From positions 1 through 54,410 of the IMG/VR virus record IMGVR_UViG_3300005602_000004: 54,410 nucleotides of DNA; one strand, 5' to 3'. Positions 1 through 54,410 of the stretch are shown piece after piece. A program made the translations under genes and the position numbers. Under the pieces are notes generated by a model. The model did no database searches, was not told the DNA's origin, and saw only the letters and a list, made by a program, of their open reading frames with translations. The DNA comes from a virus. Within the stretch, counting starts at the first letter, position 1, and the number at the start of each line of letters is the position of its first letter.

Positions 1-29
1 CGAAATTCGAAGGTCGGAGGACCGTCTAA
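1..29 (+). CDS. 3' end of the 163-aa gene that begins at 53858
   Basis: This is the last part of the coding sequence 53858-54349, duplicated here by the terminal overlap. It ends KFEGRRTV-stop with TAA at 27-29, and the A of the TAA is the first base of the next ATG. It is not a separate gene. Confidence 0.9.
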
Positions 30-90
30 TGGCACGAGGAAAACTGTTCGAGTACGCAGTTCTGTATCATCCAAAGCCGTCCAAGGATCA
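1..90. repeat. terminal direct repeat, left copy
   Basis: Bases 1-90 are identical to 54321-54410. The two ends of the window therefore overlap, which means the assembly closed on itself and the genome is complete as a circle or is circularly permuted. An overlap this short that also splits two genes at arbitrary points looks like an assembly k-mer overlap rather than a biological terminal repeat. Confidence 0.95.
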
Positions 91-458: not shown

Positions 459-1262
459 ATGTCTGAGCGAATTTGCGTTTGCGGTCTCGGCAAGGTCGGC
501 CTCCCGATCCTGAACATGCTTCGGGAAAAGGGCTTCCGGGCCATCGGATACGACCGAGATTGGAAGAAGTCGGAGTCGAGTATCGGGGACGCGGTAAAGG
601 GTTCGGATGCCGCAATCTTCATTGTGCAAACGCCATCGAATGAGGATGGGTCCTTTTCGAACGATCACCTTGTCTCGGCACTCCACCGTTTCCACGACAT
701 AGCGCCAGCCGATTACCTGTACATCATTACCAGCACCACGACTCCCGGCAGTTGCGACAAGTTTCGGAAGATTGTTGGGGATAAAGTGGTCTACAAGCCG
801 GAATTCATTCGACTGGAGTACGTGGATGCGGACCTTCGAATGCCTGATTTCGTGTTGATCGGGGAGCACCGGAAAGAGGCGGGAGATCGGGCAGAAATAA
901 TCTACAGGGAGATTTCGCATTGTCCGGTCAAACGAATGTCGCTCATCGAAGCCGAACTTGCCAAGATCACGCTCAACTGCGCCCTGACCATGAAGATTTC
1001 GCTCGCCAATCAGTTACACCTCGTAGCGAGTAAACTCGGTGCCGATTCCGCAAAGATCATGGATGCTGTTGGAACCGATCCGAGAATCGGGAAGGCGTAC
1101 CTTACTCCCGGCTGGCCGTACTCCGGGCCGTGCTTGCCGAGAGATAATCGGATGTTCCAGTACGTTGCCGAACAGGTAGGAGTGAAAGCGGCGCTCTCGG
1201 AAGCCGCCGACGAAATCAATGGGATGATCTACGATGCCGACGCAACCGGCGCAAAAAGGTAG
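459..1262 (+). CDS. UDP-glucose/GDP-mannose dehydrogenase-like protein, lacking the third domain
   Basis: Enzymes of this family oxidise a nucleotide sugar to its uronic acid with NAD+. The 267-residue product has the N-terminal Rossmann motif GLGKVGLP (9-16), an acidic residue after beta-2 (YDRD, 31-34), a PEF...MPDFVLIG block (114-134), the helix ELAKITLNCALTMKIS (166-181) and a catalytic-cysteine motif GPCLPRD with Cys225. Family members run to about 400-450 residues, so the C-terminal nucleotide-sugar domain is missing. It opens the sugar-modification island and has the ribosome binding site AAGGTGATCG. Substrate unknown; it could also be an inactive or partner-dependent form. Confidence 0.8.
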   Translation: MSERICVCGLGKVGLPILNMLREKGFRAIGYDRDWKKSESSIGDAVKGSDAAIFIVQTPSNEDGSFSNDHLVSALHRFHDIAPADYLYIITSTTTPGSCDKFRKIVGDKVVYKPEFIRLEYVDADLRMPDFVLIGEHRKEAGDRAEIIYREISHCPVKRMSLIEAELAKITLNCALTMKISLANQLHLVASKLGADSAKIMDAVGTDPRIGKAYLTPGWPYSGPCLPRDNRMFQYVAEQVGVKAALSEAADEINGMIYDADATGAKR

Positions 1263-1273
1263 GTGATGCCACC

Positions 1274-1470
1274 ATGATAAAAAGAAACTCACTTGCGAGG
1301 AAGGCTATAAGCTGCAAGGCGAGTACTGTGTTATGCAGTTCACTACCCACGATGGTCCTACTGTTAATGGGAATGGTGAGATTCACTACCCCGACTCTTG
1401 CATGTCAACAGCAGTCGTCGGAGACAACACAGTCTCATGCAGCCACCCAGCCAAACCAGCAGGTGAATAG
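1274..1470 (+). pseudogene. small Cys-containing protein gene with an apparent 1-base frame offset at its start
   Basis: A well-placed ATG at 1274 follows AGGTGATGCCACC. In its own frame it gives an 82-residue Ser/Gln-rich sequence of poor protein character, running to 1522. The -1 frame, open from 1267 to a TAG at 1468-1470, looks far more like a protein: KKLTCEEGYKLQGEYC, then MQFTTHDGPTVNGNGE and a Cys-containing end. The join lies in an A5 run (1279-1283), so a single missing A or a slip on AAA would restore a 65-residue protein. An ATG inside the better frame at 1333 would give 45 residues. The 82-residue reading overlaps the next gene by ATGA and cannot be excluded. Confidence 0.45.
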
Positions 1471-1518
1471 CGAGGCCGGGGATGGCGCTAAACCGGAGCC
1501 GCTAGAGAGCGCCATTTT

Positions 1519-2283
1519 ATGAACAAGATTGAAGAGATCGAACGGTACTGGTCAGAATCTCCGTGTAACGTCCGGCACGGGACTGCCGAGGTCGGCTCGG
1601 CTCTGTGGTCCCATCAAGTAACCACTCGGAAGTACTGGGTCGAACAACACATCCCCGACTTTGCCGACTTCCCGCACTGGCAGGGGAAGCGAGTACTAGA
1701 ACTAGGATGCGGGATCGGCACCGACACAATCGAATTCGCCAAGTTCGCAGAGCACGTCGATGCGGTGGACATTTCGAAGGCGAGCCTAGACCTTGCCATG
1801 CAGCGGGCGGCAATCAATGGATGTAAGAATATCGGTTTCTATCAGGGGAACATCGAAGACCCGCTTCCCTTTACCGCGAACTGGTGGAACACCTACGATC
1901 TCGTGTACAGTTTCGGAGTCCTCCATCACACGCCGCGTCCCGAAATCGCGTTACAGAACGCCTACAAGTTCCTAAAGCCGTACGGCGAACTTCGGATCAT
2001 GCTCTATGCTCAATGGAGTTGGAAGCGGATCATGCATCATCAGCCGGAAGCGAAGTCGGGATGTCCATACGTCCGGTGGTATACGGCGAAAGCGGCCAAG
2101 CGGCTCGTTGAGACTTCGGGATTCAGGGTTATATCCATTCGAAAGACGCACATCTTTCCGTGGCGGATTTCGGAATACAAGAAGTATCGGTACGTGCGGG
2201 CATTCCCGTGGAACGTGGTTCCGGAACGCTGGCTCGAACCATACCTCGGCCATCAAATTTTGATTCGAGCGGTGCGGGTGTGA
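1519..2283 (+). CDS. SAM-dependent class I methyltransferase
   Basis: The 254-residue product has the SAM-binding motif I VLELGCGIGTD (59-69), an acidic motif II (DAVDIS, 80-85) and a motif IV-like segment DLVYSFGVLHHTP. This is the typical layout of small-molecule methyltransferases of the Methyltransf_11/UbiE type. In this neighbourhood of glycosyltransferases a sugar or glycan substrate is plausible, but that is inference. The next gene starts inside its stop codon (GTGA), so the two are probably translationally coupled. Confidence 0.85.
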   Translation: MNKIEEIERYWSESPCNVRHGTAEVGSALWSHQVTTRKYWVEQHIPDFADFPHWQGKRVLELGCGIGTDTIEFAKFAEHVDAVDISKASLDLAMQRAAINGCKNIGFYQGNIEDPLPFTANWWNTYDLVYSFGVLHHTPRPEIALQNAYKFLKPYGELRIMLYAQWSWKRIMHHQPEAKSGCPYVRWYTAKAAKRLVETSGFRVISIRKTHIFPWRISEYKKYRYVRAFPWNVVPERWLEPYLGHQILIRAVRV

Positions 2284-3332
2284 AGGCCGCAGTCGTTGTC
2301 ACCACGATCCACGATTGTACGGAACTCCTCGACGGATACCTAAAGAACTTCTCGAAGTATGGGCACGAGGTCAATTTTTATCTGATCCCGGATGTGAAGA
2401 CGCCTCGATTCGAAATTCCGACTGCTATAGGCGTTCCGAGTGACGGTCAACAAACGGCATTTCTCGAAAAGATTGGATTCCCTCCCGCCGACATTCCCTG
2501 GAACTCCGACAACCGGCGCAATGTCGGCTACCTCATGGCCCTTGCGGATGGAGCAGAGATGGTCGTCTCCATCGACGATGACAACTACTGCTCAGAGAAC
2601 GAGGATTACTTGCAAGCACATGAATACGGTTTTTCAAGGTCCGTGGGCTATGAAAACGAAGGACACTGGTATAACAATCTCGCTTTGCTGGATGCTCCTC
2701 CATACGAATATCCGAGAGGATTCCCTTTTTTTGCAAGGGGGACAGTAAAATCGAGAAAGCTACCGCTCACCGAATCTACCGTGAGAATCAACGCTGGGAT
2801 GTGGATTGGCGAACCCGATCTAGATGCGATGAGTTGGCTGCATCTTCCATTTCAGGCAATCCGATGCTCTAGCGAGTTAGTGCTTGGACCTGAAACTTGG
2901 TGCCCGATCAACTCTCAGAATACAGCGGTGCATCGAGATTTGATGGGCGCGTATTATTTCGTTCGTATGACCTCGCTGATGGATCGCTTCGGTGACATCT
3001 TCCAGGGATATTTCGCACTCAAAGTGGCAAAGCATATGGGTTGGACAGCCCGGTTCGGATCGCCTGTGGTCACGCATCGCCGGAACTCCCATGTGTACCT
3101 GAAGGATGTGCGGAAGGAAATCGAGCCAATTCTGCTCCTCGAAGAACTGCTCCCGAAACTGTTAGAGGTGAAACTAACCGGCACGACGGTCGAGGAAGCG
3201 TATTTGTCGCTTGCGGACTTTATCGAAAGCCAATCGTCGCCATTTTATTCCGAAACGGCTAGACTGATGCGCGTGTGGTCCGGCGCGATAGGGAGGATCA
3301 ATGGCAAAAGTCATTCTAGCCGGGGGGCCTAG
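2280..3332 (+). CDS. GT-A-like glycosyltransferase with a DDDN motif
   Basis: A 350-residue protein. I chose the GTG at 2280 because it overlaps the preceding stop as GTGA and the product then begins at the first beta strand, VKAAVVVTTIHDC. The segment DGAEMVVSIDDDNY (90-103) holds a DDD metal/nucleotide-sugar motif resembling the reversibly glycosylated polypeptide/UDP-arabinopyranose mutase group (GT75) and other GT-A enzymes. The N-terminal half also resembles that group, though weakly. An upstream ATG at 2160 would overlap the methyltransferase by 124 bases and is less likely. Donor and acceptor unknown. Confidence 0.65.
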   Translation: MKAAVVVTTIHDCTELLDGYLKNFSKYGHEVNFYLIPDVKTPRFEIPTAIGVPSDGQQTAFLEKIGFPPADIPWNSDNRRNVGYLMALADGAEMVVSIDDDNYCSENEDYLQAHEYGFSRSVGYENEGHWYNNLALLDAPPYEYPRGFPFFARGTVKSRKLPLTESTVRINAGMWIGEPDLDAMSWLHLPFQAIRCSSELVLGPETWCPINSQNTAVHRDLMGAYYFVRMTSLMDRFGDIFQGYFALKVAKHMGWTARFGSPVVTHRRNSHVYLKDVRKEIEPILLLEELLPKLLEVKLTGTTVEEAYLSLADFIESQSSPFYSETARLMRVWSGAIGRINGKSHSSRGA

Positions 3333-4662
3333 TTTCGCCCTGTTCAATCCGTCTCTCCATGCGAGTCTTGGACTACTATATCTCGCGGCATGCCTTCGGG
3401 AAGCAGGTCACGAAGTCAAAATCATCGACTGCCATAAAATCAGCACCTTCGACGCCGAAGCGAATAAACTGCGAGTCGATCCCGACAAAATGGAACCCTG
3501 TGACATCCTCGGTGTGTCGATTGTTACGCCGAACGCCGAATTCGGAGGGCAACTAGCCGCTCTCTGGCCCGCCAAGGTGAAGGTAGCCGGTGGACCTCAT
3601 GTGACCTATATCATCGAAGGTCCGCACCAGCAGTTCAAGCAGAAGAAGTATTTCGAAGGGTTCGACTTCCTGATGACCGGCGAGTGCGAGGAATCGTTCG
3701 TCCAGTTCTGCAATCTTTGGCAATCGGGCGGCGATGTAACGAGGGTGCCGGGAGTGACGTGGTTCGACTCCTTCGGGGTTCATCAGCTTTACCCGTCGCC
3801 GCCACTACCGGACGTAACAAAAATGCCCTGTCCAGCTTATGACCTCTGGGGGAATTATTCGAAGGGAGGATTACAAGTTGCGTCGATCAAGGGGCACTCC
3901 GTGGATGTCGCTGAACGAACCATCGGATCGCTCTGGACGGCCAGAGGGTGTCCGTATGGTTGTTCGTTTTGTGCGGACGCGAGGACTAAACTCCGAGAAG
4001 AAACCTTCGACCAAATCGAAGCCGAAGTCAAAGCCCTCGCCGAAATCGGAGTGACCGCCCTCCGAGTTTGGGACGATGTGCTGACCATCAAGGCGAAGCG
4101 GTGCCGGGAACTGGCTGCCCTTTTCCACGACTACGGGATGCTCTGGCGGGGATGGAGCCGGGTGAATCTGTTCGACCCGGAACTGTTCAAGGACCTTGCT
4201 CGCCTCGGCTGCACGGAACTCGGATTTGGCGTTGAGCACGGATCGTCCCGAATGCTAAAGGCAATGAACAAGGGCACGACGCCAGAAGCGAACACCCGAG
4301 GAATTCGCCTATGCCAAGATGCCGGAATCTCGGCACGGGCGTATCTTCTGATCGGGTTTCCGGGTGAAACTTGGGAGTCGATCCAGGAAATGCAGGATTG
4401 GCTCGATGACTGCCGACCGGATGCAGCCAGCCTGCACCAATTTCAACCATATCCAGGGTGTGAAGTTTGGAATCATCCCGACCGTTTTGGAGTCACAATA
4501 ACTGCCGATTCATGGTCTAAGCTCTGGGAATTGAACGACGAGGACCCCAGTACGATTGTGCTCGAACTTCCTACGATGAATAAGGCGGAGTTGTTCGCTG
4601 CTAGAAAGCAGTTGCACGATTGGGTGACTGAAAATATCTCCCTTCGACTTGCGAACCGATGA
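3301..4662 (+). CDS. B12-binding domain radical SAM enzyme
   Basis: A 453-residue class B-type radical SAM protein. The N-terminal half has a cobalamin-binding Rossmann-like fold: GLLYLAACLREAGHEVKIID (24-43), DILGVSIV (68-75) and KVAGGPH (94-100). The second half has the [4Fe-4S] cysteine motif CPYGCSFC (Cys217, Cys221, Cys224), then the TIM-barrel segments WSRVN, GFGVEHGS and LIGFPGET. Family members methylate unactivated carbons or rearrange substrates using SAM and B12. Lying between glycosyltransferases, it may methylate or rearrange a sugar. It overlaps the gene before it by 32 bases and the next by ATGA. Such an enzyme is unusual in a phage genome. Confidence 0.88.
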   Translation: MAKVILAGGPSFALFNPSLHASLGLLYLAACLREAGHEVKIIDCHKISTFDAEANKLRVDPDKMEPCDILGVSIVTPNAEFGGQLAALWPAKVKVAGGPHVTYIIEGPHQQFKQKKYFEGFDFLMTGECEESFVQFCNLWQSGGDVTRVPGVTWFDSFGVHQLYPSPPLPDVTKMPCPAYDLWGNYSKGGLQVASIKGHSVDVAERTIGSLWTARGCPYGCSFCADARTKLREETFDQIEAEVKALAEIGVTALRVWDDVLTIKAKRCRELAALFHDYGMLWRGWSRVNLFDPELFKDLARLGCTELGFGVEHGSSRMLKAMNKGTTPEANTRGIRLCQDAGISARAYLLIGFPGETWESIQEMQDWLDDCRPDAASLHQFQPYPGCEVWNHPDRFGVTITADSWSKLWELNDEDPSTIVLELPTMNKAELFAARKQLHDWVTENISLRLANR

Positions 4663-5369
4663 CACTGAGCATTGTCACTTCGGGCCGGAATGATCTGCAC
4701 GCCGGAGACTTCATTGACCGGATGAATCGTTCGTTCGAAACTCTTCCTTCCGATGCCGAAATCATTATGGTCGAATGGAATCCTCCCGAGGATCGGCCCG
4801 CGCTCGCATCGATGATTCGGCGAAATGGCGTTCGGGTCATTACCGTTTCACGGGAATTGCACAATCAGATGCACGGGCATGACTTGCTTCCGTTTTTCGA
4901 ATATCGGGCGAAGAATGTCGGCATTCGCAGGGCGCACGGGAACTGGATTTTATCGATGAATCCCGACATCATATTAGGCCAGGAAATGCTCGAACGTCTA
5001 GGGTACGACTTCGATCATCACTGCTGCTACGTGGCTCCGAGACATGATATTGAAGGCGGGAAACTCGTTCGGATTACGAGCGGGCCAGGAGACTTCGTTC
5101 TGATGCATCGGGATAAGTGGTCCGATCTTCGAGGGTATCTCGATATTGTTAGTTATTCGCATATCGATTCGCTACTACTATGGAATGCGGAGTCTATTGG
5201 CATTCCGATGGTCGAACTTCCCTGTCCGATCTTCCATCAAGAGCACGACCGTTCGGTGCATAAAGGGCGCATGTCGATCCATTCTTCCGACCTGCATTGG
5301 TTCGTTGGGCAGAAGAATGACCTAGATTGGGGATTTGCCAAACTCGACCTAGCGGAGACGCTGACTTGA
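4659..5369 (+). CDS. GT2-like glycosyltransferase
   Basis: A 236-residue protein that starts at the first GT-A strand (MTLSIVTSGRND). EIIMVEWNPP follows in strand 2, and GNWILSMNPDIIL replaces the usual DxD with NPD. Its size and strand order match the catalytic core of family 2 glycosyltransferases. An NPD motif occurs in active relatives, but metal dependence cannot be judged. It is coupled at both ends by 4-base overlaps: ATGA on entry and TTGA on exit. Donor and acceptor unknown. Confidence 0.65.
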   Translation: MTLSIVTSGRNDLHAGDFIDRMNRSFETLPSDAEIIMVEWNPPEDRPALASMIRRNGVRVITVSRELHNQMHGHDLLPFFEYRAKNVGIRRAHGNWILSMNPDIILGQEMLERLGYDFDHHCCYVAPRHDIEGGKLVRITSGPGDFVLMHRDKWSDLRGYLDIVSYSHIDSLLLWNAESIGIPMVELPCPIFHQEHDRSVHKGRMSIHSSDLHWFVGQKNDLDWGFAKLDLAETLT

Positions 5370-6343
5370 AAGTCGCATTACTCTACCCGACTGTAGCCGC
5401 TCTCGTGGAGAAGATGGGCGTACTTTTCCCCGGTCTGAACGTTATAGGCCCTCCATGCGATGCGCTGTACAGTTGGGACAAACGAATCCTCAATCTGGCA
5501 AAGGCGAAGGATCGTGGCAAGGAGTGGCAGGAAGTGGGTCTCGACATCCACTTTGAGGAAAAGCCGTACTCTGAATGCGACTTCTCGAAATTCGACCTGT
5601 TGATCGAATCGGTCGAAACATTCGACTATGCCGCCGACTGGAAGAACCATTGTCACCGTCTCGAATGCCCAACAATGGTCTTTGTGTGCTGGTATGACAA
5701 TCCGACCTATCTCCCATCGAACTATCAACAGAAGATCAAAAACTTGCCAATTAAGGTTGGGATGCCGTCGCTTGTTCCGGCATGGAAGTCTGTCTATCCC
5801 CAAGCCGAATTTGCTCCGGTTCCGGTGGGTGACTGGTGGTTCGAGCGGGAATGGAACGGGATTCGAGAAGAGGCGCTATTTGTTCTCGCCGGGAAGGATT
5901 TGTGGCGACCGGCAGACAAGTCAGTTTGCGGGGTTGATCTATTCGAAAAACTCTCGGAATCCTTTCCGGGAAAGATGCACCACCATGACGGGGCGATGGA
6001 GTTTAAGACCTCGAAGCAGATGGCCGAAATGTTCAGCGAGTACCGGGTATTCCTGAATCTCGATAATGCAGCGGGGAGACCGCTATCGACTTCCTTCACG
6101 GAGGCTCTGGCAGCCGGGATGCCGGTTGTGGCTCGGGACCTATCGGGACTCTCCTACTTTGACTACATCGAAGGGAATGGAATCGCAGCCTATAATTTAA
6201 GCGAGATTGCCGAATTCATCGCTCTCTGTTTCTCGGACATAGCATTCGCTCGAAGGTGTAGCGCCCGTTCTAGGCAGATTGCGAAGGCGGCGTTCTCGAC
6301 CGAAGCGGTTCGGCCATTCTACGAAATCGGAAGGTCGGCATGA
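5366..6343 (+). CDS. GT4-like (GT-B) glycosyltransferase
   Basis: A 325-residue protein. The TTG at 5366 is the likely start: it overlaps the preceding TGA as TTGA and puts LKVALLYPTVAALVEK at the N-terminus. The C-terminal half has the GT-B donor-binding features FLNLDNAAG, STSFTEALAAGMPVVARDLS (a family-4 type Glu plus Gly-Xaa-Pro-Val-Val segment) and a final helix. The N-terminal acceptor domain is less conserved. An ATG at 5327 would extend into the preceding gene and gives an unlikely N-terminus. The stop overlaps the next ATG by ATGA. Confidence 0.72.
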   Translation: MKVALLYPTVAALVEKMGVLFPGLNVIGPPCDALYSWDKRILNLAKAKDRGKEWQEVGLDIHFEEKPYSECDFSKFDLLIESVETFDYAADWKNHCHRLECPTMVFVCWYDNPTYLPSNYQQKIKNLPIKVGMPSLVPAWKSVYPQAEFAPVPVGDWWFEREWNGIREEALFVLAGKDLWRPADKSVCGVDLFEKLSESFPGKMHHHDGAMEFKTSKQMAEMFSEYRVFLNLDNAAGRPLSTSFTEALAAGMPVVARDLSGLSYFDYIEGNGIAAYNLSEIAEFIALCFSDIAFARRCSARSRQIAKAAFSTEAVRPFYEIGRSA

Positions 6344-6918
6344 CGATTTCAAAGAACCGAGAGGACGATCTAAGGAAACTGCAAGAGCATGCCATCGAGG
6401 AATATGAATCTGGCAAAAATCTCCAAGAGATCGGTGAACAATATGGATTTTCGGGCAGCACTGTCCTGCATATTCTTCAATATTTAGGTGTATCCAGAAG
6501 ATCAGGAACACCAATCCGTCACGGCCACAACCAAGTTGGGCATCGGACTGGAACTTATAATTCTTGGGACACGATGATTCAACGCTGCACCAATCCAAGA
6601 AACGATAACTATAGAAATTATGGTGCGCGTGGTATTACGGTATGTGAACGCTGGCTGATATTCGCTAATTTCCTCGCCGACATGGGAGAGCGCCCGGAAG
6701 GTCTAACGCTTGATCGGCTCGATAATTCTAAGGGATACGCTCCTGAGAATTGTAAATGGATAACAAGGAAAGAGCAGTTGAATAATAAGCGAACGAATGT
6801 AGTAATCGAATACATGGGCAAGAGTCAGACATTGGCTCAATGGGCCGTAGAACTTGGCGTGGACTATATGGCTCTCTGGCACAAATATCGGAGAAAGGGA
6901 ACATGGCCCCCGAAATAA
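6340..6918 (+). CDS. HNH-type homing endonuclease-like protein (first of two in the sugar island)
   Basis: A 192-residue protein. The N-terminus has a helix-turn-helix-like segment around LQEIGEQYGFSGSTVLHIL. The core follows the pattern YNSWDTMIQRCTNP, NYGARGITVCERW, TLDRLDNSKGYAPENCKW and EQLNNKRTN, typical of phage homing endonucleases often annotated HNH or AP2-like. A C-terminal DNA-binding-like repeat ends in KGTWPPK. It lies exactly between two glycosyltransferase genes, starts in the ATGA of one and ends 16 bases inside the other, and is more AT-rich than its surroundings. Probably a selfish gene. Confidence 0.75.
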   Translation: MTISKNREDDLRKLQEHAIEEYESGKNLQEIGEQYGFSGSTVLHILQYLGVSRRSGTPIRHGHNQVGHRTGTYNSWDTMIQRCTNPRNDNYRNYGARGITVCERWLIFANFLADMGERPEGLTLDRLDNSKGYAPENCKWITRKEQLNNKRTNVVIEYMGKSQTLAQWAVELGVDYMALWHKYRRKGTWPPK

Positions 6919-7739
6919 TTTCACTTCTCCTGCCTTCCCGGAAGCGCCCGACCATTCTTCGCCGGATGGTTAAGTCTGTCCGAGATACGGCGACTAACCC
7001 TGACCGCATCGAAATTGTAGTCCGATTTGATGATGATGATGAGGCTAGTGCGGAAGAGGCCCGCATGGATGGACTAGTAGTATTGGTCGGTCCACGCATT
7101 CGAAAGATGACTCAGTACTGGAATCTGTGTTTCGACGAGTGCTCTGGCTCTATATGTCAACAAGCCAATGATGATTATATAATAACTAGTAATGGATGGG
7201 ACGTTGCTCTCGAACAAGCGTTCGCAGAAGTGCCTGATAAGATTATGTGCGCGCATTTTTCAGACGTATATGGTCATGGATCGAATTTTGGCCCCCATGC
7301 ATTTACCAGCCGACGCTGGATAGAAACATTAGGTTACTTTATAGCACCGTACTTCAGTAGTGACTTTGGTGACGCTTGGCTTTTAGAAATAGCGAACATC
7401 CTCGGACGCCGAAGATTCCTACCCTTCAACATAGAGCACTGGCATTTTTCTCAAGGTCTCGCCGAGATCGACGAAAACACCGCCGAACGGTTGCAACGCC
7501 ATCGGGAGGACGATCCCGAAACTCTGTACTACAGTCCGGCAATGCAGGCCGAACGCCAGCATGACGCGCAAAAACTGGCGAAGTTAATGGACAAAACAAT
7601 CAGCACGAAGGGTTGGTGCCCGCCGCACAACAATATCCGAAGCGCCGGGATGTGTCCGAAGTGCGACAGTTTATCGACTGTGGCGGTCGGAGTAGGGCAG
7701 TTCCATTGCAATTGTTGCTCGCACATTTTTACGAGATAG
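6903..7739 (+). CDS. GT-A glycosyltransferase with C-terminal zinc ribbon
   Basis: A 278-residue protein that starts MAPEIISLLLPSRKRP, a typical first GT-A strand. The donor/metal motif FDDDD lies at 42-46 and NDDYI at about 87-91. The last 40 residues form a small zinc ribbon with MCPKC and HCNCC pairs, an unusual addition to a glycosyltransferase that recurs on the gene at 8241. The ATG at 6903 was chosen because upstream starts fall inside the HNH gene. Probably part of the sugar-modification pathway. Confidence 0.68.
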   Translation: MAPEIISLLLPSRKRPTILRRMVKSVRDTATNPDRIEIVVRFDDDDEASAEEARMDGLVVLVGPRIRKMTQYWNLCFDECSGSICQQANDDYIITSNGWDVALEQAFAEVPDKIMCAHFSDVYGHGSNFGPHAFTSRRWIETLGYFIAPYFSSDFGDAWLLEIANILGRRRFLPFNIEHWHFSQGLAEIDENTAERLQRHREDDPETLYYSPAMQAERQHDAQKLAKLMDKTISTKGWCPPHNNIRSAGMCPKCDSLSTVAVGVGQFHCNCCSHIFTR

Positions 7740-7747
7740 CGTAGGAT

Positions 7748-7801
7748 GGGGACACCGTGATTGGTCACGGCATCCCCGCAGGCTCAGTCAGTTAGGACTG
7801 A
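7748..7801 (+). promoter_or_regulatory. two-hairpin RNA element before the second HNH gene
   Basis: GGGGA (7748-7752) pairs with TCCCC (7773-7777), enclosing a small CA/CA internal loop and the stem CCGTGA/TCACGG (7755-7760/7765-7770) with loop TTGG. A second hairpin, TCAGTC/GACTGA (7784-7789/7796-7801), ends three bases before the ATG at 7804. No T run follows, so it is not a standard terminator. It resembles the paired hairpins of the 49-52 kb operon. Confidence 0.6.
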
Positions 7802-7803
7802 AC

Positions 7804-8244
7804 ATGCAAAATAGAACTTTATCACACAACTCAAATTATCGGCACGGCCATGCTCTCGCAGGCAAAGAGACCGCTACGTACATCTGTTGGAGAAACATGA
7901 TCTCTCGTTGCGAGAATAAAAATCAGAAAGATTACAAATACTACGGTGGTCGTGGGATTCAAGTTTGCGAAAGATGGAGAACTGATTTTACTTCATTCCT
8001 TAGAGATATGGGTGAAAAACCCAAAGGAATGTCCATAGATAGGATCGACAATAATGGTGATTATGAACCCTCTAATTGTCGGTGGGAAACACACACTAAT
8101 CAAATGAATAATAAGAGGAATAGCGTTCTAATTACGAGAGAAGGATTGACATTGAACGCTTCCGAGTGGGCTAGGAGAATAGGTGTGGACCATCACACTA
8201 TCGCAAGATGGCATCGGAAAGGTACGTGGCCGCAGGGAAAATGA
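7804..8244 (+). CDS. HNH-type homing endonuclease-like protein (second copy type)
   Basis: A 146-residue relative of the gene at 6340. It shares the same core: CWRNMISRCEN, YYGGRGIQVCERW, SIDRIDNNGDYEPSNCRWE and NQMNNKRN. It also has a C-terminal WARRIGVDHHTIARWHRKG helix-turn-helix and ends in GTWPQGK. It again sits between two glycosyltransferase genes and its stop overlaps the next ATG by ATGA. The coding sequence is AT-rich. Function as a homing nuclease is inferred from family resemblance. Confidence 0.75.
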   Translation: MQNRTLSHNSNYRHGHALAGKETATYICWRNMISRCENKNQKDYKYYGGRGIQVCERWRTDFTSFLRDMGEKPKGMSIDRIDNNGDYEPSNCRWETHTNQMNNKRNSVLITREGLTLNASEWARRIGVDHHTIARWHRKGTWPQGK

Positions 8245-8921
8245 AAACAAAGTGGGAATTATTGATTCTTACAATGCCAACTCGCGTCGAGTTTCTTCGG
8301 CGTTTATTGATTTCATTGGAGCCGCAATGTGCAAGTAATCCAGAAGTTTCGATTCGTATTCGAACTTGTGATCCACGATATACATTAGGAGAGAATCGTG
8401 AAATGTTGCGCCGCTCGTCGGAGGCTTCGTATCTTAGCTTCGTAGACGATGACGATGGCGTTGATCCAGAATTTGTTTCTACTATTCTTCCATTATTGGA
8501 TGGTATCGATTATGTGGGATTTGATGTTCAAGCATACATTGACGGAAAACCGTTGGTAAAAATCACTCATCATTCACTCCGATATGATGGCTGGTATGAA
8601 ACGGATGAATTTTACGCCCGAGACATCTCACATATAAACCCAATGCGTAGAGATTTAGTACTTCTGGAAGCCTTCGAAGGCGGTCACGGAGAGGACGTTC
8701 GATGGGCCGACCGGATGCGGGCGAGAGGTGTTCTGAAAACAGAACGCTACATAGATCGGGTTCTATACCACTACTATTTCCGGACCCGAAAGAACATCGG
8801 CAAGCCGTGCCCGAAGTGTGGGAGTACGTCCACAGTGCTCGTCGGCGAAGGAACGGTATGCAATGCCTGCTCGCTATCCTTTGACCGGCATCCGGAGCAA
8901 AAATCTTGTCTTTGGACTTGA
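8241..8921 (+). CDS. GT-A glycosyltransferase with C-terminal zinc ribbon (second)
   Basis: A 226-residue protein that starts MKTKWELLILTMPTR at the first GT-A strand. It has a DDDD motif (SFVDDDDG, 67-74) for nucleotide-sugar and metal binding. Near the C-terminus CPKC and CNAC pairs form a zinc ribbon like that of the gene at 6903. Last gene of the sugar island; a structured RNA with a T run follows at 8984-9080. The first 500 bases are AT-rich compared with the rest of the genome, like the adjacent homing gene. Confidence 0.68.
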   Translation: MKTKWELLILTMPTRVEFLRRLLISLEPQCASNPEVSIRIRTCDPRYTLGENREMLRRSSEASYLSFVDDDDGVDPEFVSTILPLLDGIDYVGFDVQAYIDGKPLVKITHHSLRYDGWYETDEFYARDISHINPMRRDLVLLEAFEGGHGEDVRWADRMRARGVLKTERYIDRVLYHYYFRTRKNIGKPCPKCGSTSTVLVGEGTVCNACSLSFDRHPEQKSCLWT

Positions 8922-9253: not shown

Positions 9254-9517
9254 TCACTCGTCCAGTAGGGGAAAGTCGGTTCCGTTAGAAGTGAAAAAGT
9301 CACAGACTCCGGTCGAGGATACCCCGTCTTTGTCGGTCTCTTCATCTCGGAATATTTCGCAGGTGTGGAACTTGTCGATGACCCGCTCGAAAAAGTGCTG
9401 ACAATATCGGCATTGTTCTTTGCCATCGGCTTCCCGGTAATTGACCTCTTCGGCGTCGAACTTAACGGGACGCGATTCGATCAATCTTTCGTAGAAATTC
9501 TTGCTCACCGTTGCCAT
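9254..9517 (-). CDS. small cysteine-containing protein
   Basis: 87 residues, acidic. CRYC (about 36-39), a later TCEIF and VCDFF give four cysteines that could form a zinc site. It overlaps the end of the upstream gene by 56 bases in a different frame. No family recognised. The Cys spacing and placement among other zinc-ribbon proteins suggest a small zinc-binding regulator or adaptor. Confidence 0.6.
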   Translation of the reverse strand: MATVSKNFYERLIESRPVKFDAEEVNYREADGKEQCRYCQHFFERVIDKFHTCEIFRDEETDKDGVSSTGVCDFFTSNGTDFPLLDE

Positions 9518-9839
9518 TGATTAACCTCGTGAATACCGGAGACGGAGTAAAAACGTGATCGATAATCGCTTCTCCGTAATGGCCAAGTACTGCATTGATC
9601 GATGCTTCGATATGTGGACCTAGTTCGATACTCGCTTCTCCGTAATGGCCAAGTACTGCATTGATCGATGCTTCGATATGTGGACCTAGTTCGATACTCG
9701 CATACTCACCAGTGTAGATTTCCGGAGGTGGAGGAGTCCAAATCTTGCTCCGGCCCATATCGAAAATCTTCCGGTTGGGATCAAACACAAACGGAGCGGC
9801 GGTCAGAAACGCCATGAACCTTCGTCGAGAGAGTTCCAT
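9462..9839 (-). CDS. Tat-signal-like protein with an internal 22-residue duplication
   Basis: 125 residues. The N-terminus, MELSRRRFMAFLTAAPFVF, has a twin-arginine motif followed by a short hydrophobic stretch, as in Tat export signals. Positions about 47-90 contain a perfect 22-residue repeat (ASIELGPHIEASINAVLGHY plus GE), encoded by a 66-bp tandem repeat. No family recognised. The arginine motif sits close to the start and the hydrophobic part is short, so export is a hypothesis. Confidence 0.6.
   Translation of the reverse strand: MELSRRRFMAFLTAAPFVFDPNRKIFDMGRSKIWTPPPPEIYTGEYASIELGPHIEASINAVLGHYGEASIELGPHIEASINAVLGHYGEAIIDHVFTPSPVFTRLINGNGEQEFLRKIDRIASR
9567..9698 (-). repeat. perfect 66-bp tandem duplication within a coding sequence
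   Basis: 9567-9632 and 9633-9698 are identical 66-bp units, a multiple of three, so the reading frame of gene 9839-9462 is kept and 22 residues are doubled. Perfect identity implies a recent duplication or an assembly artefact. Read depth or junction-spanning reads would tell them apart. Confidence 0.95.
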
Positions 9840-10734: not shown

Positions 10735-11261
10735 TGACCGCCGAGGCCCGAGCCTTGCAATCCGCGAAGATGAAGGAAGCATGGATTAAGCGCAAGGCTC
10801 TAAAGCAGGAAGTTCCCGCCGATCCGGGGATTCGGGAGGCGATGGCAAAGGTTCCGATGAATGCGGTAACACCAGCGGCATTGCCGACACCTACTCCACC
10901 TCCCCCGGAATCCGACACGCTCGATCAGAGCCACATCATCATCGAAGTCGATTGGGACCATCTCCCGATGTCCGAAGCGCAGCAGTTTTACGCTCACCTG
11001 AAAGAGAACTTCGAGCGGGCCGGTAAAATCCTGAATGCCCGGTCGATGGAACGAACTTCCGGATATACCTGCTTCATGTGTCACAAACACTTCCAAGGGA
11101 ATCCCGGTTTCACCGACCACAGCTACATCGATCCCGCAACTGGCCTATCCCCCCGAGTGGATTGCTGTGGCGAACTCTGTGTGATCAACTATAATTCCTT
11201 CCGAATCAACGAACGGCACCAACGGCAACTCGCCCAAGCTGCCGCCCAACGAAATGGCTAA
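10731..11261 (+). CDS. protein with proline-rich linker and zinc-finger-like C-terminus, possible terminase accessory
   Basis: 176 residues. The N-terminal third is a basic helix (RALQSAKMKEAWIKRKALK), followed by a Pro-rich linker (PTPTPPPPES). Later come YTCFMCHKHF and VDCCGELC, which could hold zinc. Located directly upstream of, and overlapping by 8 bases, the large terminase gene. That is the position of a small terminase subunit, but I see no recognisable small-terminase fold, so this role is inference from position only. Confidence 0.6.
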   Translation: MMTAEARALQSAKMKEAWIKRKALKQEVPADPGIREAMAKVPMNAVTPAALPTPTPPPPESDTLDQSHIIIEVDWDHLPMSEAQQFYAHLKENFERAGKILNARSMERTSGYTCFMCHKHFQGNPGFTDHSYIDPATGLSPRVDCCGELCVINYNSFRINERHQRQLAQAAAQRNG

Positions 11262-13044
11262 ACATAACGATCCGGTCTGGATGGATCGCTCCCGCCAGTT
11301 ACTCGCTCGCCTGCCGATTAAATCAAGGGAACATAATCAGATGACGCCTTTCAGCTTCTTTCCGAGTCAGGAAAGAAGATTCCAAAGGATGCGGGAGCAA
11401 TGGCGTCGAGAAGGGCACATTCGGATCATTGATCTGAAGAGTCGGCGTGTGGGATTTTCGAGTCAGACCGAAGGAATTTTTTGGTGCAGGGGACTGGGAT
11501 TCTCCAATATGAACATGAAGATCGTCGCCCATCTTACGACGAGCGCCGAGGAACTGTTTCGTGTTCCAGGCGATCTATCCAGAGGATTCCCAAACTTCCC
11601 GCTCGAAGACATCCAGCAAAAGAAAATCTATTTCCGGCATCCGAGTGGAGATAGCCATTTGACGGTTGCGACCGCTGGCACTCCATCGGCGGGGCGCGGG
11701 GGAACGCTCTCCGCGCTTCATCTTTCTGAAGCAGCTTCCTATCCGGATGACGAAATTTTCACGGCCATGATTTCGTCCGTGTCGAAGGGTCCAGGAAGCA
11801 TGATTATCATTGAATCGACGGCCAATGGCCGGGAAGGTCCGGGGGCGGCGTTTGCCGAATACTGGGATGAAGCGGTAGCGGGTCGAAATGGGTACATCCC
11901 CAACTTCGCATCGTGGCTCGAAGACCCGGCCTTCATTCGTCCGGAAGAAGAGGCGGAAGACGCTCCTCGGGACGACCTCGAAAAAGAGTTGATGAAGGCT
12001 CCATTCAATGCGACTCGGGAGCAAATCGCATGGATGCGTCGAACGAAAGCCGATGACTGCCGGAACATCGAGTCAAAATTCCTGCAAGACTTTCCGCACA
12101 CGCCCTCGGTAGCCTTTCAAGTATCGGGATACCCGGCTTTCCCGAGGGAGGAGCTTGCGTATGCGGAAAGCACGGTCAAACCACCGATCTGTCGAGGGTC
12201 TTTTCAGCGTATGGCTGGGAGTTCGGCTTTTAAGTTCATCGAGGACGATAACGGTCCTGTCCATATGTGGAAGAAGCCCGTCAACGAAAAAAATCGTCCA
12301 GATGGATTGCATTACTACATCGGAGCGGATGCTGCGCTTGGAACTGAAGAGGGTGATTTCTGCGCTTACGCGTGTATTTGTGGAGAGACCGGCGAACTCG
12401 CTTGCCGTTTTGCTGAACGAATTGCCCCCGAAGTCCTGGCGAATCAACTCGATATGTGCGGACAGTACTACAATCGAGCAATGGTAAATCCGGAATTGAC
12501 AGGGAATCTCGGGAGGTGGGCGCTTGTCAAGCTACGCGACGTATACCGATACCCGAACATCTACACTTGGAAAGGGCGAGACGACCGGAAAAAGGGTAAG
12601 AGCCGTAGTATTGCCCTTGGCTTCGAAATGACGCAGGCGACACGCCGATTAATCGTGGATGCGGCTCGAAGCGGCATTCGCATGGGGCTAAAGGCTGAAC
12701 CCGGAGCACTCGTCATCAATGATCGAGCGTTGATGGACCAACTCGGGATGATGACGGTGAAGGAATGGCGGTGGGACATTCTTCGGGGGCACGACGATAT
12801 TGCCGTAGCCTGGATGATTGCGGCTTTAACCCGTGAGCAGTATCCTCCCCCTCGAATGAAGTACGCACCAAAAAACTTAATGGACCCACAGAATCCAAAG
12901 GAAATATTGGCTGGATTGCCGCTCAAGGAAGAGATTGGACCGATGATCCAGCGAGAAATGAGACAATTTATGAATCAAGCCAAAACGCCTGCTCCGGGTA
13001 GTCGCGTACGGTGGAGCACAAGGGCACGACTGGCGGGAATATGA
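11254..13044 (+). CDS. terL: terminase large subunit
   Basis: The DNA-packaging ATPase/nuclease, 596 residues. An adenine/Walker A region IDLKSRRVGFSSQT (59-72) replaces the canonical GKT with a variant common in phage terminases. TLSALHLSEAA (about 148-158) is the motif II/III coupling region and IIIESTANG follows. The C-terminal RNase H-like nuclease has YIGADAALGTEEGD, the acidic NPELTGN segment and GHDDIAVAWMIAA supplying its acidic residues. Its product cuts and translocates DNA into the prohead through the portal. It overlaps both neighbours by a few bases. Confidence 0.9.
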   Translation: MAKHNDPVWMDRSRQLLARLPIKSREHNQMTPFSFFPSQERRFQRMREQWRREGHIRIIDLKSRRVGFSSQTEGIFWCRGLGFSNMNMKIVAHLTTSAEELFRVPGDLSRGFPNFPLEDIQQKKIYFRHPSGDSHLTVATAGTPSAGRGGTLSALHLSEAASYPDDEIFTAMISSVSKGPGSMIIIESTANGREGPGAAFAEYWDEAVAGRNGYIPNFASWLEDPAFIRPEEEAEDAPRDDLEKELMKAPFNATREQIAWMRRTKADDCRNIESKFLQDFPHTPSVAFQVSGYPAFPREELAYAESTVKPPICRGSFQRMAGSSAFKFIEDDNGPVHMWKKPVNEKNRPDGLHYYIGADAALGTEEGDFCAYACICGETGELACRFAERIAPEVLANQLDMCGQYYNRAMVNPELTGNLGRWALVKLRDVYRYPNIYTWKGRDDRKKGKSRSIALGFEMTQATRRLIVDAARSGIRMGLKAEPGALVINDRALMDQLGMMTVKEWRWDILRGHDDIAVAWMIAALTREQYPPPRMKYAPKNLMDPQNPKEILAGLPLKEEIGPMIQREMRQFMNQAKTPAPGSRVRWSTRARLAGI

Positions 13045-14155: not shown

Positions 14156-14426
14156 AAAGCTACTCCAAGCACTGACCGCGCTACCGGCGATGGTGATAGC
14201 AGGTAAAGATGGCAACCCGGTCGGAGTGAAGTATGAGACCACACCGGATAAGCGATACGTCGTATTCCTGAATGCACGAATGGTAGATGTAACGGATTTT
14301 TGCGCTCCACCTTCTGAATCATGCCCTGCCGCACATACACTTCCTCCGGGAACTGTTGTCCATTGTGTCTATGTGAGTAAAGATGAATCAATGGACGAAA
14401 TCATCCGTATCTACGAGGTCGGATAG
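14145..14426 (+). CDS. small protein with Tat-like N-terminus
   Basis: 93 residues. The N-terminus MERRKLLQALTALPAMVIAG resembles a short twin-arginine signal. The rest is a beta-rich domain with VKYETTPDKRYVVFLNARMV and two Cys around position 60. It directly precedes the portal gene and shares its last base with the GTG. Export of a phage head-module protein would be unusual, so the motif may simply be a basic helix. Confidence 0.55.
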   Translation: MERRKLLQALTALPAMVIAGKDGNPVGVKYETTPDKRYVVFLNARMVDVTDFCAPPSESCPAAHTLPPGTVVHCVYVSKDESMDEIIRIYEVG

Positions 14427-16162
14427 TGTCCGTCACCTACGTCCAAGCGCCATTCATCGTCACCGAGGAGAAGAAAACTGTCGCTTTTACCGGAGATAAG
14501 AAAATATCGAAGCAACTCGATGAATTGCAGCGCATGTCGAAAAACGAACGGGAAAATAAGCAGGGAAGCAACCACTCCGATGAAATGCGGCAGTACTACA
14601 ACCTGAATTACTATCCATCGGTATCGACTCCCGCTTTCCGTCCCCGTGTCATTCTTCCCGAAGCGCAATTCCTGATGTGCTGTGAAGCGACCGAGCTAAC
14701 GAACGATACGCCCAAAGTTTACATCAGCGTGAATGGGAAGGCCGACGAGCAACGGGAGAAGGCATTCAACGCAGCATGGCGTCTCGGGATGTTCAATAAC
14801 CGGCTCTTTGACGGTGTTTTCTGGTCGCAATTCGTCAATCCATCCTTCATGCAGGTTGGCTGGAATCCCGACGCTCGAAACGGGAAGGGAATGGTTTGGA
14901 TCGCTGCCGACGATCCCGACACTATTTTCCCCGATCCGCACGCCAAGGATGACAAAACTTGGTCTTATGTCGTGAAGGAAAAGTACCTGTATGTCGATGA
15001 AATTAGGCGTATTTTCCCGGAAAAGGGGAAGTACGTCAAGATCGGCGGAGGGTACGACGATTACGAAGAGAATGAGATGGAAGGCTCCCATTTCGATCTT
15101 GGAATGGAACTTCCTCCTGGACCGCTTCGGATCGATGCCCCTCAAGGTTTCGAACATCAAAGGAACGGCCCTCGGGTACGCATCCGGTACGTATGGGTCA
15201 AGGATTATGCTCGGGATCGGGTGAAAGAGATCGCGGGACGAGAGGCCGGAGAAGGTTTCGAACTAGTAGTCCAGCCACGATTTAAGTGGAGGTATCCGAA
15301 CGGTCGATTCATCGTCGAGTGCAATGGGATTATTCTGGCTGATGGACCGAATTTCATGCCCCGATTGCCGGAGGATGATTTCGGTACTTTCCCGTTTATC
15401 GGCTTGTGGTCCATGCCGCACCTCGATTCGATGTACGGACCTCCCCCGATTCGGTACGTGAAGTCTCCACAGGACATTGCCGAGCGAATGTATACCCAGC
15501 TTATCGAGAACATGATCCGAACGAACAATGTGCAGTGCTGGATTCCTCGGGATGCGAATATCGACATCGATGCTTACGGCGGGTTGCCAGGAGAAGTGCA
15601 GGTTTACGACGGCGACAAGCCTCCGACCATGAGTTCGCCGCCACAGATTCCGCAGCATATGACACAGATACCGGAACTATTGCTGCAAAAAGTGGCGCGG
15701 TATTCGGGGACAACCCCTGAACGGCAGGGGCAGGCGGGTGGGGGAAACATTTCACCGGAACTGTTTGACGCTGCTGTATTTCAGGGTCAGACATTCGTTC
15801 GGATGAAAGCCCGCCTTCTTGCCGAATCGTATCAGCGGTTAGCACGACTCGTTTTTTACACAATGGCCCGGTTCAAGCGGAACGAAGATATGCTGATGCC
15901 CGAGCGCCGGAAGCAGAAATCATGTTCATGGTTGCCACTTCCCGATGGGGCGGAATGCGATCTCGAACTCGATTCAGTTTCATTACAGGCAGTTTCAAGC
16001 TCGATGATGAAGAATCTCGTTCTTTCGCTCTCGAAGACGGGCGCGTTGCCGCCGAAGTTTATCTTCGAGACGATGGGTTTCCCGCAAGCCGACCAATTGG
16101 CAGAAGATGCGCAAAATGCACAAGCATTAGCCGCGATTTCGAAATTGCGCCGTCCCCGGTAG
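14426..16162 (+). CDS. portal protein
   Basis: 578 residues, assigned from position between terminase and scaffold/capsid genes and from typical portal features. These are an N-terminal disordered segment, WYDD-like mixed alpha/beta wing regions with many aromatic residues, a long helix IAERMYTQLIENMIRTNNV followed by the loop region, and a final helical part (QADQLAEDAQNAQALAAISK). Portals form the dodecameric ring through which DNA enters and leaves the head. The GTG start at 14426 fits the end of the gene before. The closest type is probably the podovirus head-to-tail connector, but this is a judgement from sequence feel. Confidence 0.75.
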   Translation: MSVTYVQAPFIVTEEKKTVAFTGDKKISKQLDELQRMSKNERENKQGSNHSDEMRQYYNLNYYPSVSTPAFRPRVILPEAQFLMCCEATELTNDTPKVYISVNGKADEQREKAFNAAWRLGMFNNRLFDGVFWSQFVNPSFMQVGWNPDARNGKGMVWIAADDPDTIFPDPHAKDDKTWSYVVKEKYLYVDEIRRIFPEKGKYVKIGGGYDDYEENEMEGSHFDLGMELPPGPLRIDAPQGFEHQRNGPRVRIRYVWVKDYARDRVKEIAGREAGEGFELVVQPRFKWRYPNGRFIVECNGIILADGPNFMPRLPEDDFGTFPFIGLWSMPHLDSMYGPPPIRYVKSPQDIAERMYTQLIENMIRTNNVQCWIPRDANIDIDAYGGLPGEVQVYDGDKPPTMSSPPQIPQHMTQIPELLLQKVARYSGTTPERQGQAGGGNISPELFDAAVFQGQTFVRMKARLLAESYQRLARLVFYTMARFKRNEDMLMPERRKQKSCSWLPLPDGAECDLELDSVSLQAVSSSMMKNLVLSLSKTGALPPKFIFETMGFPQADQLAEDAQNAQALAAISKLRRPR

Positions 16163-19650: not shown

Positions 19651-20655
19651 ATGGCGTTTACAGTCGGAACTGGCGTTAATCAACCCAGCGCGTTGCTGGT
19701 CAACACGCTTCAGTCGATCTCGCAGAAGATGATTTATCCGAAGGTTGCGGACCTCGTGTTCCAACCATCGCCGACATTCTCTTTCTTGAACCAGTATGCC
19801 AAGAAATACAATGCCGGAGCCGAAATCGTCTATCCCCTCCTCACGACCAAGATTACGACTCGCGGCTCCTACTGGGGCGACCAGCTTTTGCCGACCTCGG
19901 CAATAGACGCGATTCAACCGGCTGACCAAGTGTGGCGTGGCTATTTCCAAGCAACCACACTGCCGGTCATGGACATCGTGATCGGGCGCGGCGGGCCGGT
20001 AGGTCTCGATCTCGTGAAGACCTATGTACAGGCTGCCGCTGGTTCGATGCTCGACATGCTAGCCGAAGCGGTAGCCGGTAACGCGCCATTTAACTCAGCG
20101 ACCGACCTCGATTCGATCAATGCCTGGGTGCTACAAACCACGAATACGATTGCCGGGATCAACCGCACGACGAGCACGTTCTGGCAGCCACAGCCGAATC
20201 AGCCCATCTCCGGCCACTTGACCCCGATCAAGTTGCTTCCGGCCTACTTCCTGACGACCTATGGTTACGACGAGCCGAACCTGCTCATCCTGAACAACAC
20301 GGATTTTGCGAACTTCGAAGGGCAATTCACGCAAAACTCGAACGCAGCGGCTTCGACAACCATCATCCGCGCTACCGACAACTATGCGGATACGGCCCCA
20401 ATCCAGACTTCGTTCCGGTATCACATGCGGTTCAAGAATGCCGTTGTGCTTGCGGATCAGCACTTCCCGGCAGGGACGGGATACCTGTTGAACACTAAGT
20501 ACATATGGATGGTGTATAACATGGGTTCATATTTCAGAATGACCCCTTGGATAATGCCGTCCAATCAGGATGTTATCACATCGCGCATTCATCTGATTTG
20601 CCAACTCGGATGTAATAGGCCGATTGGTCAAGTGGCGTTGACGTTACTATCGTAA
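19651..20655 (+). CDS. major capsid protein
   Basis: 334 residues, immediately after the scaffold with ribosome binding site AAAAGGAG. The length, the mix of segments such as VYPLLTTKITTRGSYWGDQL, the spine-like helix VKTYVQAAAGSMLDMLAEAV and the C-terminal MTPWIMPSNQDVITSRIHLI fit an HK97-fold coat protein. Assignment is by position, size and pattern. A LAGLIDADG gene follows at once, a common target arrangement. Confidence 0.75.
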   Translation: MAFTVGTGVNQPSALLVNTLQSISQKMIYPKVADLVFQPSPTFSFLNQYAKKYNAGAEIVYPLLTTKITTRGSYWGDQLLPTSAIDAIQPADQVWRGYFQATTLPVMDIVIGRGGPVGLDLVKTYVQAAAGSMLDMLAEAVAGNAPFNSATDLDSINAWVLQTTNTIAGINRTTSTFWQPQPNQPISGHLTPIKLLPAYFLTTYGYDEPNLLILNNTDFANFEGQFTQNSNAAASTTIIRATDNYADTAPIQTSFRYHMRFKNAVVLADQHFPAGTGYLLNTKYIWMVYNMGSYFRMTPWIMPSNQDVITSRIHLICQLGCNRPIGQVALTLLS

Positions 20656-53858: not shown

Positions 53859-54349
53859 TGTGGTTCAAGCCGAAGTTGACTAGGGAACCAGTGGTGATCG
53901 ATCAGCCGGACGAATCGAGGAAGGCGCTCGCGGTCAAGGCCAGGGTGGTGTTGGGATACCTGGTGCTCGAACGAGAGATTCCAGGATCGAACGCGAAGAC
54001 TGAGGTCGAGACGGTTTTCAAGAAGTTAGGCATAGAGCCGCTTAATTTCGAGCGAGTCCAGAAGTATCAGAAGTGGTTTGCCAAAAAACATTCAGGAAGT
54101 TTCAGTTGGGAAAGAACAGTTTGGCATGAAACGCCGATTAGACAGTACGAGCATTTTATCCCCGAGTTTGCCCTATCGAGGGCAGTGGAGGTCAAGGAGC
54201 ATCTTCCGGCAGCCGAATTTACAATCGAGTTTCCGGTACGGGAGCAAATCGTTCGGCCCGATCCATTTATGGTGATACATTATAAAGGGACTAAGTATTA
54301 TCTCGATGTGTGGGATGAACCGAAATTCGAAGGTCGGAGGACCGTCTAA
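53858..54349 (+). CDS. hypothetical protein
   Basis: 163 residues from the ATG at 53858 that overlaps the preceding TGA. A helical middle (ARVVLGYLVLEREIPGSNAK) and beta-type C-terminus (EFTIEFPVREQIVRPDP, VIHYKGTKYYLDVWDEP). No family recognised. Its last bases are also the start of the window. Confidence 0.6.
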   Translation: MWFKPKLTREPVVIDQPDESRKALAVKARVVLGYLVLEREIPGSNAKTEVETVFKKLGIEPLNFERVQKYQKWFAKKHSGSFSWERTVWHETPIRQYEHFIPEFALSRAVEVKEHLPAAEFTIEFPVREQIVRPDPFMVIHYKGTKYYLDVWDEPKFEGRRTV

Positions 54350-54410
54350 TGGCACGAGGAAAACTGTTCGAGTACGCAGTTCTGTATCATCCAAAGCCGT
54401 CCAAGGATCA
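54321..54410. repeat. terminal direct repeat, right copy
   Basis: Identical to bases 1-90. See the left copy. Confidence 0.95.
54349..54410 (+). CDS. 5' part of the 73-aa gene that starts at 29 (partial copy)
   Basis: The first 20 codons of gene 29-250, cut by the window end. Present only because the circular sequence overlaps itself. Confidence 0.95.
   Translation, partial: MARGKLFEYAVLYHPKPSKD

Follow-up and report, generated by a model that had tools for sequence, protein, structure and literature searches.

Among the closest described counterparts of the genes considered here are some from antibiotic biosynthesis and from the glycosylation of phage particles. The GT75 mutase MtdL turns GDP-L-fucopyranose and GDP-L-galactopyranose into furanoses and is auto-glycosylated at Arg159, and roles have been assigned to its residues (PMC9937993). 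MtdL and its relative Hyg20 belong to antibiotic pathways (A201A and hygromycin, respectively). C-methylation by B12 radical S-adenosylmethionine (SAM) enzymes is known in the aminoglycoside pathway of gentamicin (PMC4340712/PMC4039129), and covalent glycans are reported, in a passage of PMC11256854 that cites Freeman et al. 2023, on capsids of Che8, an F1 mycobacteriophage. Neither a phage GT75 mutase nor a phage island combining a B12 radical SAM enzyme with glycosyltransferases is described in the open-licence papers that we searched. We analysed an island holding both, at positions 459-8921 of an IMG/VR virus record of 54,410 bases (IMGVR_UViG_3300005602_000004; the whole record is called the window below).

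We propose, at even chances, that this island encodes a phage pathway for an unusual, probably furanosyl sugar, with phage structural proteins as the likeliest acceptors. Support is good for the sugar-pathway part, because the island holds a GT75 protein with the MtdL sites and a linked dehydrogenase-methyltransferase pair, and because its radical SAM enzyme is found paired with GT75 beside a GDP-mannose dehydratase and a C-methyltransferase in another phage; this agrees with a first-pass annotation of the same DNA, which had suggested that the set could build an unusual sugar. The acceptor and the chemistry of the radical SAM enzyme we infer. The island encodes a GT75 mutase, four glycosyltransferases, a short dehydrogenase-like protein, a methyltransferase and a B12-type radical SAM enzyme, with two HNH endonuclease genes among them (aa, amino acids; NDP, nucleoside diphosphate):

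459-1262, plus strand: short UDP-glucose/GDP-mannose dehydrogenase-like protein (UGDH), 267 aa; PF00984 1.9e-26, PF03721 3e-14, phrog_9148 3.6e-43
1519-2283, plus strand: class I SAM-dependent methyltransferase (MT), 254 aa; PF13847 9.1e-22, phrog_22502 2.2e-43
2280-3332, plus strand: GT75 NDP-pyranose mutase (RGP/UAM/MtdL family), 350 aa, GTG start; PF03214 1e-13, PDB 7xpr/7yua 7e-67
3301-4662, plus strand: radical SAM enzyme with B12-binding domain (rSAM), 453 aa; PF04055 9.8e-21, PF02310 6.7e-9
4659-5369, plus strand: GT-A1, glycosyltransferase of GT-A fold, 236 aa; PF00535 at E 0.02 only, AlphaFold model
5366-6343, plus strand: GT-B type glycosyltransferase, 325 aa, TTG start; PF13524 1.1e-4, PF13692 1.2e-3
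6340-6918, plus strand: HNH endonuclease 1; phrog_3377 1.8e-49
6903-7739, plus strand: GT-A2, glycosyltransferase with C-terminal zinc ribbon, 278 aa; phrog_14945 glycosyltransferase 6.8e-24
7804-8244, plus strand: HNH endonuclease 2; similar to HNH endonuclease 1 and to the HNH genes of relatives
8241-8921, plus strand: GT-A3, glycosyltransferase with C-terminal zinc ribbon, 226 aa; phrog_14775 glycosyltransferase 7.4e-32

All of these genes are intact, with zero internal stops and with coordinates the same or nearly the same as first annotated, so that the earlier inventory of a UGDH-like protein, an MT, glycosyltransferases and an rSAM was recovered in full. The Pfam and PHROG matches are well above chance for UGDH, MT, radical SAM, B12-binding and RGP. 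The 4-base overlaps noted before between many genes are exact at five junctions (MT/GT75, rSAM/GT-A1, GT-A1/GT-B, GT-B/HNH endonuclease 1 and HNH endonuclease 2/GT-A3), which suggests translational coupling, and the GT75 and rSAM genes overlap by 32 bases. One assignment changes: five glycosyltransferases had been counted, of which four are upheld, while the protein at 2280-3332 is by its MtdL match a mutase.

That this protein is a GT75 mutase, predicted to convert an NDP-pyranose to an NDP-furanose, is well supported. Aligned together with the other phage GT75 proteins to the MtdL sequence of a Marinactinospora locus (L075), it has 42% identity to MtdL across 338 residues, and 16 of the 17 positions compared are the same. 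All 12 of the metal- and sugar-site residues checked are kept, in MtdL numbering Asp87, the DDD triad, Asn112, Arg159, Asp195, Ser228, Gln229, Arg257, Asp260 and His287. The window protein and 10 close relatives moreover agree in the equivalents of D87, R159, D195, S228, Q229, R257 and D260; in the divergent copy of contig L012, those of D87 and H287 are missing. Of the three positions linked with the choice of GDP over UDP, two (Thr13 and Ser86) are unchanged and the third, Asn42, is replaced by Lys, so the natural donor is probably a GDP-sugar. Unlike MtdL, the window protein has this Lys and sits in a phage operon with an rSAM and four glycosyltransferases.

MtdL and Hyg20 function in antibiotic pathways, in which B12 radical SAM enzymes are also common, and the set might on that account make a secreted small molecule, as the A201A and hygromycin clusters do. 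We hold this to be highly improbable: the island contains no scaffold-forming gene (non-ribosomal peptide synthetase, polyketide synthase, aminocyclitol or nucleoside) and no transporter, the neighbouring genes are four glycosyltransferases, and the island's recurrence across contigs with packaging genes suggests a role in the phage particle. Elsewhere among phages, GT75 genes accompany nucleotide-sugar enzymes, as a sugar-pathway function predicts. A large phage without rSAM (L039) has GT75 together with a C-methyltransferase and a GDP-mannose 4,6-dehydratase, and the divergent GT75 genes of contigs L045-L052 lie beside a glycosyltransferase-like gene and, where tested, a sugar epimerase. Those members of the latter group that were checked lack the Asp87 and His287 equivalents, and their substrate may differ.

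A search for the gene set in other phages, as the first-pass annotation had proposed, recovered it from another 13 IMG/VR contigs. The rSAM protein, the rSAM alignment and the GT-B alignment, used as scan queries, yielded 14 rSAM-bearing contigs in all (L002-L015), the fourteenth being L013, a phage contig that at 119 kb falls into another size class. Profile searches of the whole records found rSAM in 14 of 14, GT-A3 in 13, GT75 in 12, GT-A1 in 11, and UGDH and MT in 10 each; rSAM, GT-B and GT-A3 are constant across the contigs, and we also count GT-A2 into the core. The order of the genes is preserved, except that UGDH and MT follow GT-A3 in L012. Recurrence in 13 contigs shows that the island is not a chance arrangement. 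The rSAM-GT75 pairing recurs in L013, where the rSAM gene is directly followed by GT75 (39%), a C-methyltransferase of nucleotide-sugar type (PF08421/PF08484) and a GDP-mannose 4,6-dehydratase (4e-90).

The HNH genes, by comparison, occupy different junctions in different relatives, and the two free-standing endonucleases within the operon (6340-6918 and 7804-8244) are probably mobile insertions. The possibility that the island is a relic was rejected, as the genes have no internal stops and ratios of nonsynonymous to synonymous substitution (dN/dS) of 0.04-0.29 where synonymous sites are unsaturated. The rSAM and dehydrogenase genes, for which inactivity had been raised as a possibility, are under purifying selection.

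UGDH and MT behave as one linked sub-module, both being present in the same 10 of the 14 contigs and both missing from L007, L013, L014 and L015. The UGDH-like protein announced by the first-pass annotation is present, with NAD-binding and central domains and the catalytic Cys and Lys, but it lacks the C-terminal UDP-binding domain (PF03720) that defines a canonical UGDH, as do its relatives, which stop at the same point. The short form is common to 9 aligned proteins, in which K169, N173, C225 and D229 of the central domain are invariant, and its dN/dS is 0.08-0.19; it is a fixed form under selection and not a fresh truncation. An 82-aa open reading frame at 1274-1522, in the gap between UGDH and MT, was rejected as a gene, since it has no family match and L002-L005 have no space there. 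The cyanophage Bellamy has its own adjacent MT-UGDH pair, its MT being 41% identical to that of the window, and LR756502 apparently has one likewise; unlike the short gene of the window, the UGDH gene of Bellamy is of full length (1239 bp). A GT75-like gene stands among glycosyltransferase and heptose genes in cyanophage S-T4. No B12 radical SAM gene is annotated in these Bellamy and S-T4 regions, unlike in the island.

These cyanophages hold their genes in nucleotide-sugar clusters, and sets of GT-A and GT-B enzymes with a dehydrogenase and a methyltransferase are typical of polysaccharide loci. The island might accordingly act on the host surface during infection, remodelling a glycan there (O-antigen, capsule or S-layer sugar) and, for example, blocking the adsorption of other phages, and an 825-aa protein encoded at 31634-34111, with a weak polysaccharide-lyase match at its C-terminus, could be read in the same way. 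We nevertheless consider a host glycan unlikely. The island has no predicted membrane enzyme, no GtrA/B-like or acyltransferase gene, and no family match to the O-antigen and capsule hallmarks (flippase, polymerase or lipid-carrier glycosyltransferase with membrane segments). In addition, GT-A2 and GT-A3 have zinc ribbons and phage-type relatives, and 75 GT75 loci of cellular genomes, drawn from many phyla, contain no related rSAM, GT-B or GT-A3 set adjoining the GT75 gene. A gene-for-gene match to an ordinary bacterial O-antigen cluster, the outcome against which the first-pass annotation had warned, was likewise not found among these loci.

The same cellular loci gave no neighbour in tblastn searches with rSAM and, by profile, one weak partial match at a contig edge (L133). 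No close cellular copy of rSAM appeared in limited searches: a pattern scan of genome contigs from the rSAM alignment, with two short peptide patterns only, returned no relative, and the rSAM profile at E 1e-45 found nothing in 695 genomes (396 from the phylum of an Acidobacteriaceae locus and 299 from that of a Verrucomicrobia locus), a search that had no positive control. Within this limited search, which lacked such a control, the rSAM lineage was found only in phages.

The rSAM itself carries the motif C217-PYG-C221-SF-C224 (CxxxCxxC), the three cysteines of which are invariant in 12 homologues, and both its radical SAM domain (PF04055) and its N-terminal B12-binding domain (PF02310, 36.1 bits against a cut-off of 32.1) exceed the Pfam cut-offs, which confirms the Cys217, Cys221 and Cys224 assignment made earlier and the cobalamin-binding domain. 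In the DxHxxG-like motif, D43 and H45 are invariant in a 12-sequence alignment and G is replaced, mostly by S. A profile search of the PDB gave AprD4, RimO, TsrM and TokK as the nearest solved sequences, with AprD4 the best match (5e-18) over rSAM residues 205-392 only. The full-length fold matches MgmA, CysS, AprD4, TsrM, TokK and OxsB at about 14-18% structural-alignment identity; the model is of moderate confidence (predicted local distance difference test score, pLDDT, 61), so this match serves as support only and families beyond that list are not thereby excluded. Methyltransferases predominate among these enzymes; the exceptions include AprD4, a dehydratase of sugar diols, and OxsB, which contracts a ring.

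The rSAM thus resembles PhpK, TsrM, TokK, CysS, MgmA and GenK-type enzymes in its B12-binding and radical SAM domains, its CxxxCxxC motif and its fold. It differs from these cobalamin-dependent radical SAM methyltransferases in reaching no NCBIfam subfamily cut-off (the top match, PhpK, gives 126 of 600 bits) and in its low structural identity. With AprD4, which acts on a sugar ring in the apramycin pathway, it shares the best solved sequence match, although the likeness is confined to the segment given above. C-methylation would be our first choice for its chemistry, if not beyond doubt. For the methylation suggested earlier, this enzyme is a plausible candidate, being a B12-domain radical SAM protein by sequence and by fold, though its nearest solved sequence is that of AprD4. 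A distant B12 radical SAM gene of Streptomyces phage SF3 (L059, 7851-9350) adjoins thymidylate kinase and NUDIX genes and could be part of another pathway, one related to nucleotides.

Among the island's proteins, rSAM is the most conserved, with 75-95% identity to the window copy among the aligned sequences as against 39% between the terminases of L008 and the window. Its dN/dS of 0.04-0.08 is close to that of the terminase large subunit (0.05-0.07), with synonymous sites often near saturation, and low dN/dS together with near-saturated synonymous sites shows that rSAM is under long-term constraint and has not been recently exchanged. The rSAM gene of L013 (8456-10873) is a single 805-aa frame with an in-frame insert that starts CIVAGTLVTLHDG and ends YFANGVLVHN directly before the Cys of CPYGCYFC; this is the signature of an intein, with Cys217 as the putative +1 residue. 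Separately, the terminase large subunit of L004 (17925-20768) is a 947-aa frame with an apparent intein (CLSGNTRV...NGLITHN/C) near residue 285, and the L005 terminase match ends at the same residue.

The glycosyltransferases are of several kinds. GT-A1 has no significant family match, and its AlphaFold model (pLDDT 78; predicted template modelling score, pTM, 0.83; Z 17 to GT2 enzymes) has a clear GT-A fold. Neither GT-B nor GT-A1 has a match among 50,697 phage records, and every contig returned by the viral scan with GT-B also carries rSAM. The C-terminal zinc ribbons previously ascribed to two glycosyltransferases were borne out in 12 homologues of each: the four cysteines are invariant in GT-A2 (C251, C254, C269 and C272) and in GT-A3, where the DDDD motif is invariant as well. 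With the pattern used, no zinc ribbon was found elsewhere in the window. Four relatives have this ribbon, besides, at the end of a small separate protein, as if it were a C-terminal tag held in common (L141, 1744-1989, minus strand; L142, 2014-2433, minus strand; L143, 2050-2322, minus strand; L144, 1036-1212, plus strand).

Zinc ribbons could bind DNA, and known phage systems couple NDP-sugar enzymes with glycosyltransferases; together with the thymidylate kinase and NUDIX neighbours of the distant SF3 gene, this would fit sugar modification of the phage's DNA bases, as in the glucosylated or arabinosylated hydroxymethylcytosine of T4-like phages. We regard DNA modification as decidedly unlikely, given that no thymidylate synthase/hydroxymethylase family was found in the window or nine relatives (with a positive control), that there is no DNA glucosyltransferase family match, and that the island adjoins packaging and structural genes. 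A Tet/JBP search was uninformative, with no control match. A defence role was rejected, the only PADLOC matches being at superfamily level.

The acceptor that we favour is a virion protein, for which we put the chances at about even, because the glycosyltransferases have phage-type relatives with a reported precedent, because packaging and structural genes lie beside the island in the same orientation, and because there are no clear membrane segments in its enzymes and no flippase or polymerase. GT-A3 is 33-38% identical to glycosyltransferases of the Actinoplanes phage phiAsp2 (37.5%) and of the Mycobacterium phages Yoshi, Avani and LittleE (34-38% for phiAsp2, Yoshi and Avani), and is also related to those of some Gordonia phages. 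GT-A2 resembles glycosyltransferases of Streptomyces and Pelagibacter phages. Yoshi has three such genes in a row and phiAsp2 two glycosyltransferases flanking a methyltransferase, and the regions examined in both, unlike the island, are devoid of genes for a GT75 mutase, a UGDH or a radical SAM enzyme. As to position, an exact 90-bp direct repeat at the ends of the window (1-90 and 54321-54410) makes it most likely that this is a whole phage genome, of 54,320 bp, and the island is followed on its own strand by the genes for terminase (11254-13044), portal (14426-16162) and major head protein (19651-20655). Promoter and terminator scans gave site counts no higher than in shuffles. A 66-bp tandem duplication lies at 9559-9690, within the minus-strand open reading frame 9462-9839.

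The pathway with a virion protein as acceptor would run in five steps. GT75 would first convert an NDP-pyranose, probably a GDP-sugar, to the NDP-furanose via Arg146 (the equivalent of MtdL Arg159), a step for which the sequence gives good support. Oxidation and methylation of a sugar by the linked pair of UGDH-like dehydrogenase and MT may then follow in most relatives, not all, and rSAM would activate an otherwise inert carbon in the sugar or glycan, most likely for C-methylation. GT-B, GT-A2, GT-A3 and usually GT-A1 would, by their families and folds, build a short glycan, the zinc ribbons of GT-A2 and GT-A3 perhaps tethering these enzymes to a common protein partner or acceptor. Finally, the glycan would be placed on a virion protein, as in the mycobacteriophages related via GT-A3, with shielding of the particle as the likely benefit. 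A more specific version, in which the phage B12 rSAM C-methylates or rebuilds a furanosyl sugar that is displayed on the virion and absent from the host's own carbohydrates, is a tentative possibility.

Several points weigh against this proposal. The likeness of GT-A3 to mycobacteriophage glycosyltransferases (34% over 64% of its length) indicates a shared family and not a common acceptor, and the sequence names no acceptor. None of the island's genes encodes a sugar-nucleotide synthesis enzyme with a defined product sugar, and the pathway would thus start from a sugar supplied by the host. Two rSAM-bearing relatives have no GT75, and the furanose may be dispensable; the UGDH-like protein is missing its substrate-binding domain; and rSAM may not bind B12 in practice, its closest solved sequence being a sugar diol dehydratase.

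In conclusion, the island is a variant of phage glycosylation islands that is new in its GT75 and rSAM, and it is neither an O-antigen cluster nor decayed. It places a furanose-donor mutase and a type of radical enzyme best known from antibiotic pathways together in a phage operon, the radical enzyme being about as conserved as the terminase and part of the constant core of the set. If the proposed pathway is correct, it would represent a new class of glycan on virions or phage products, would offer tractable GT75 and B12 radical SAM enzymes of bacterial type, and would make the role of sugar decoration for the phage testable by gene removal, in an IMG/VR phage lineage for which the B12 supply of the host could matter.

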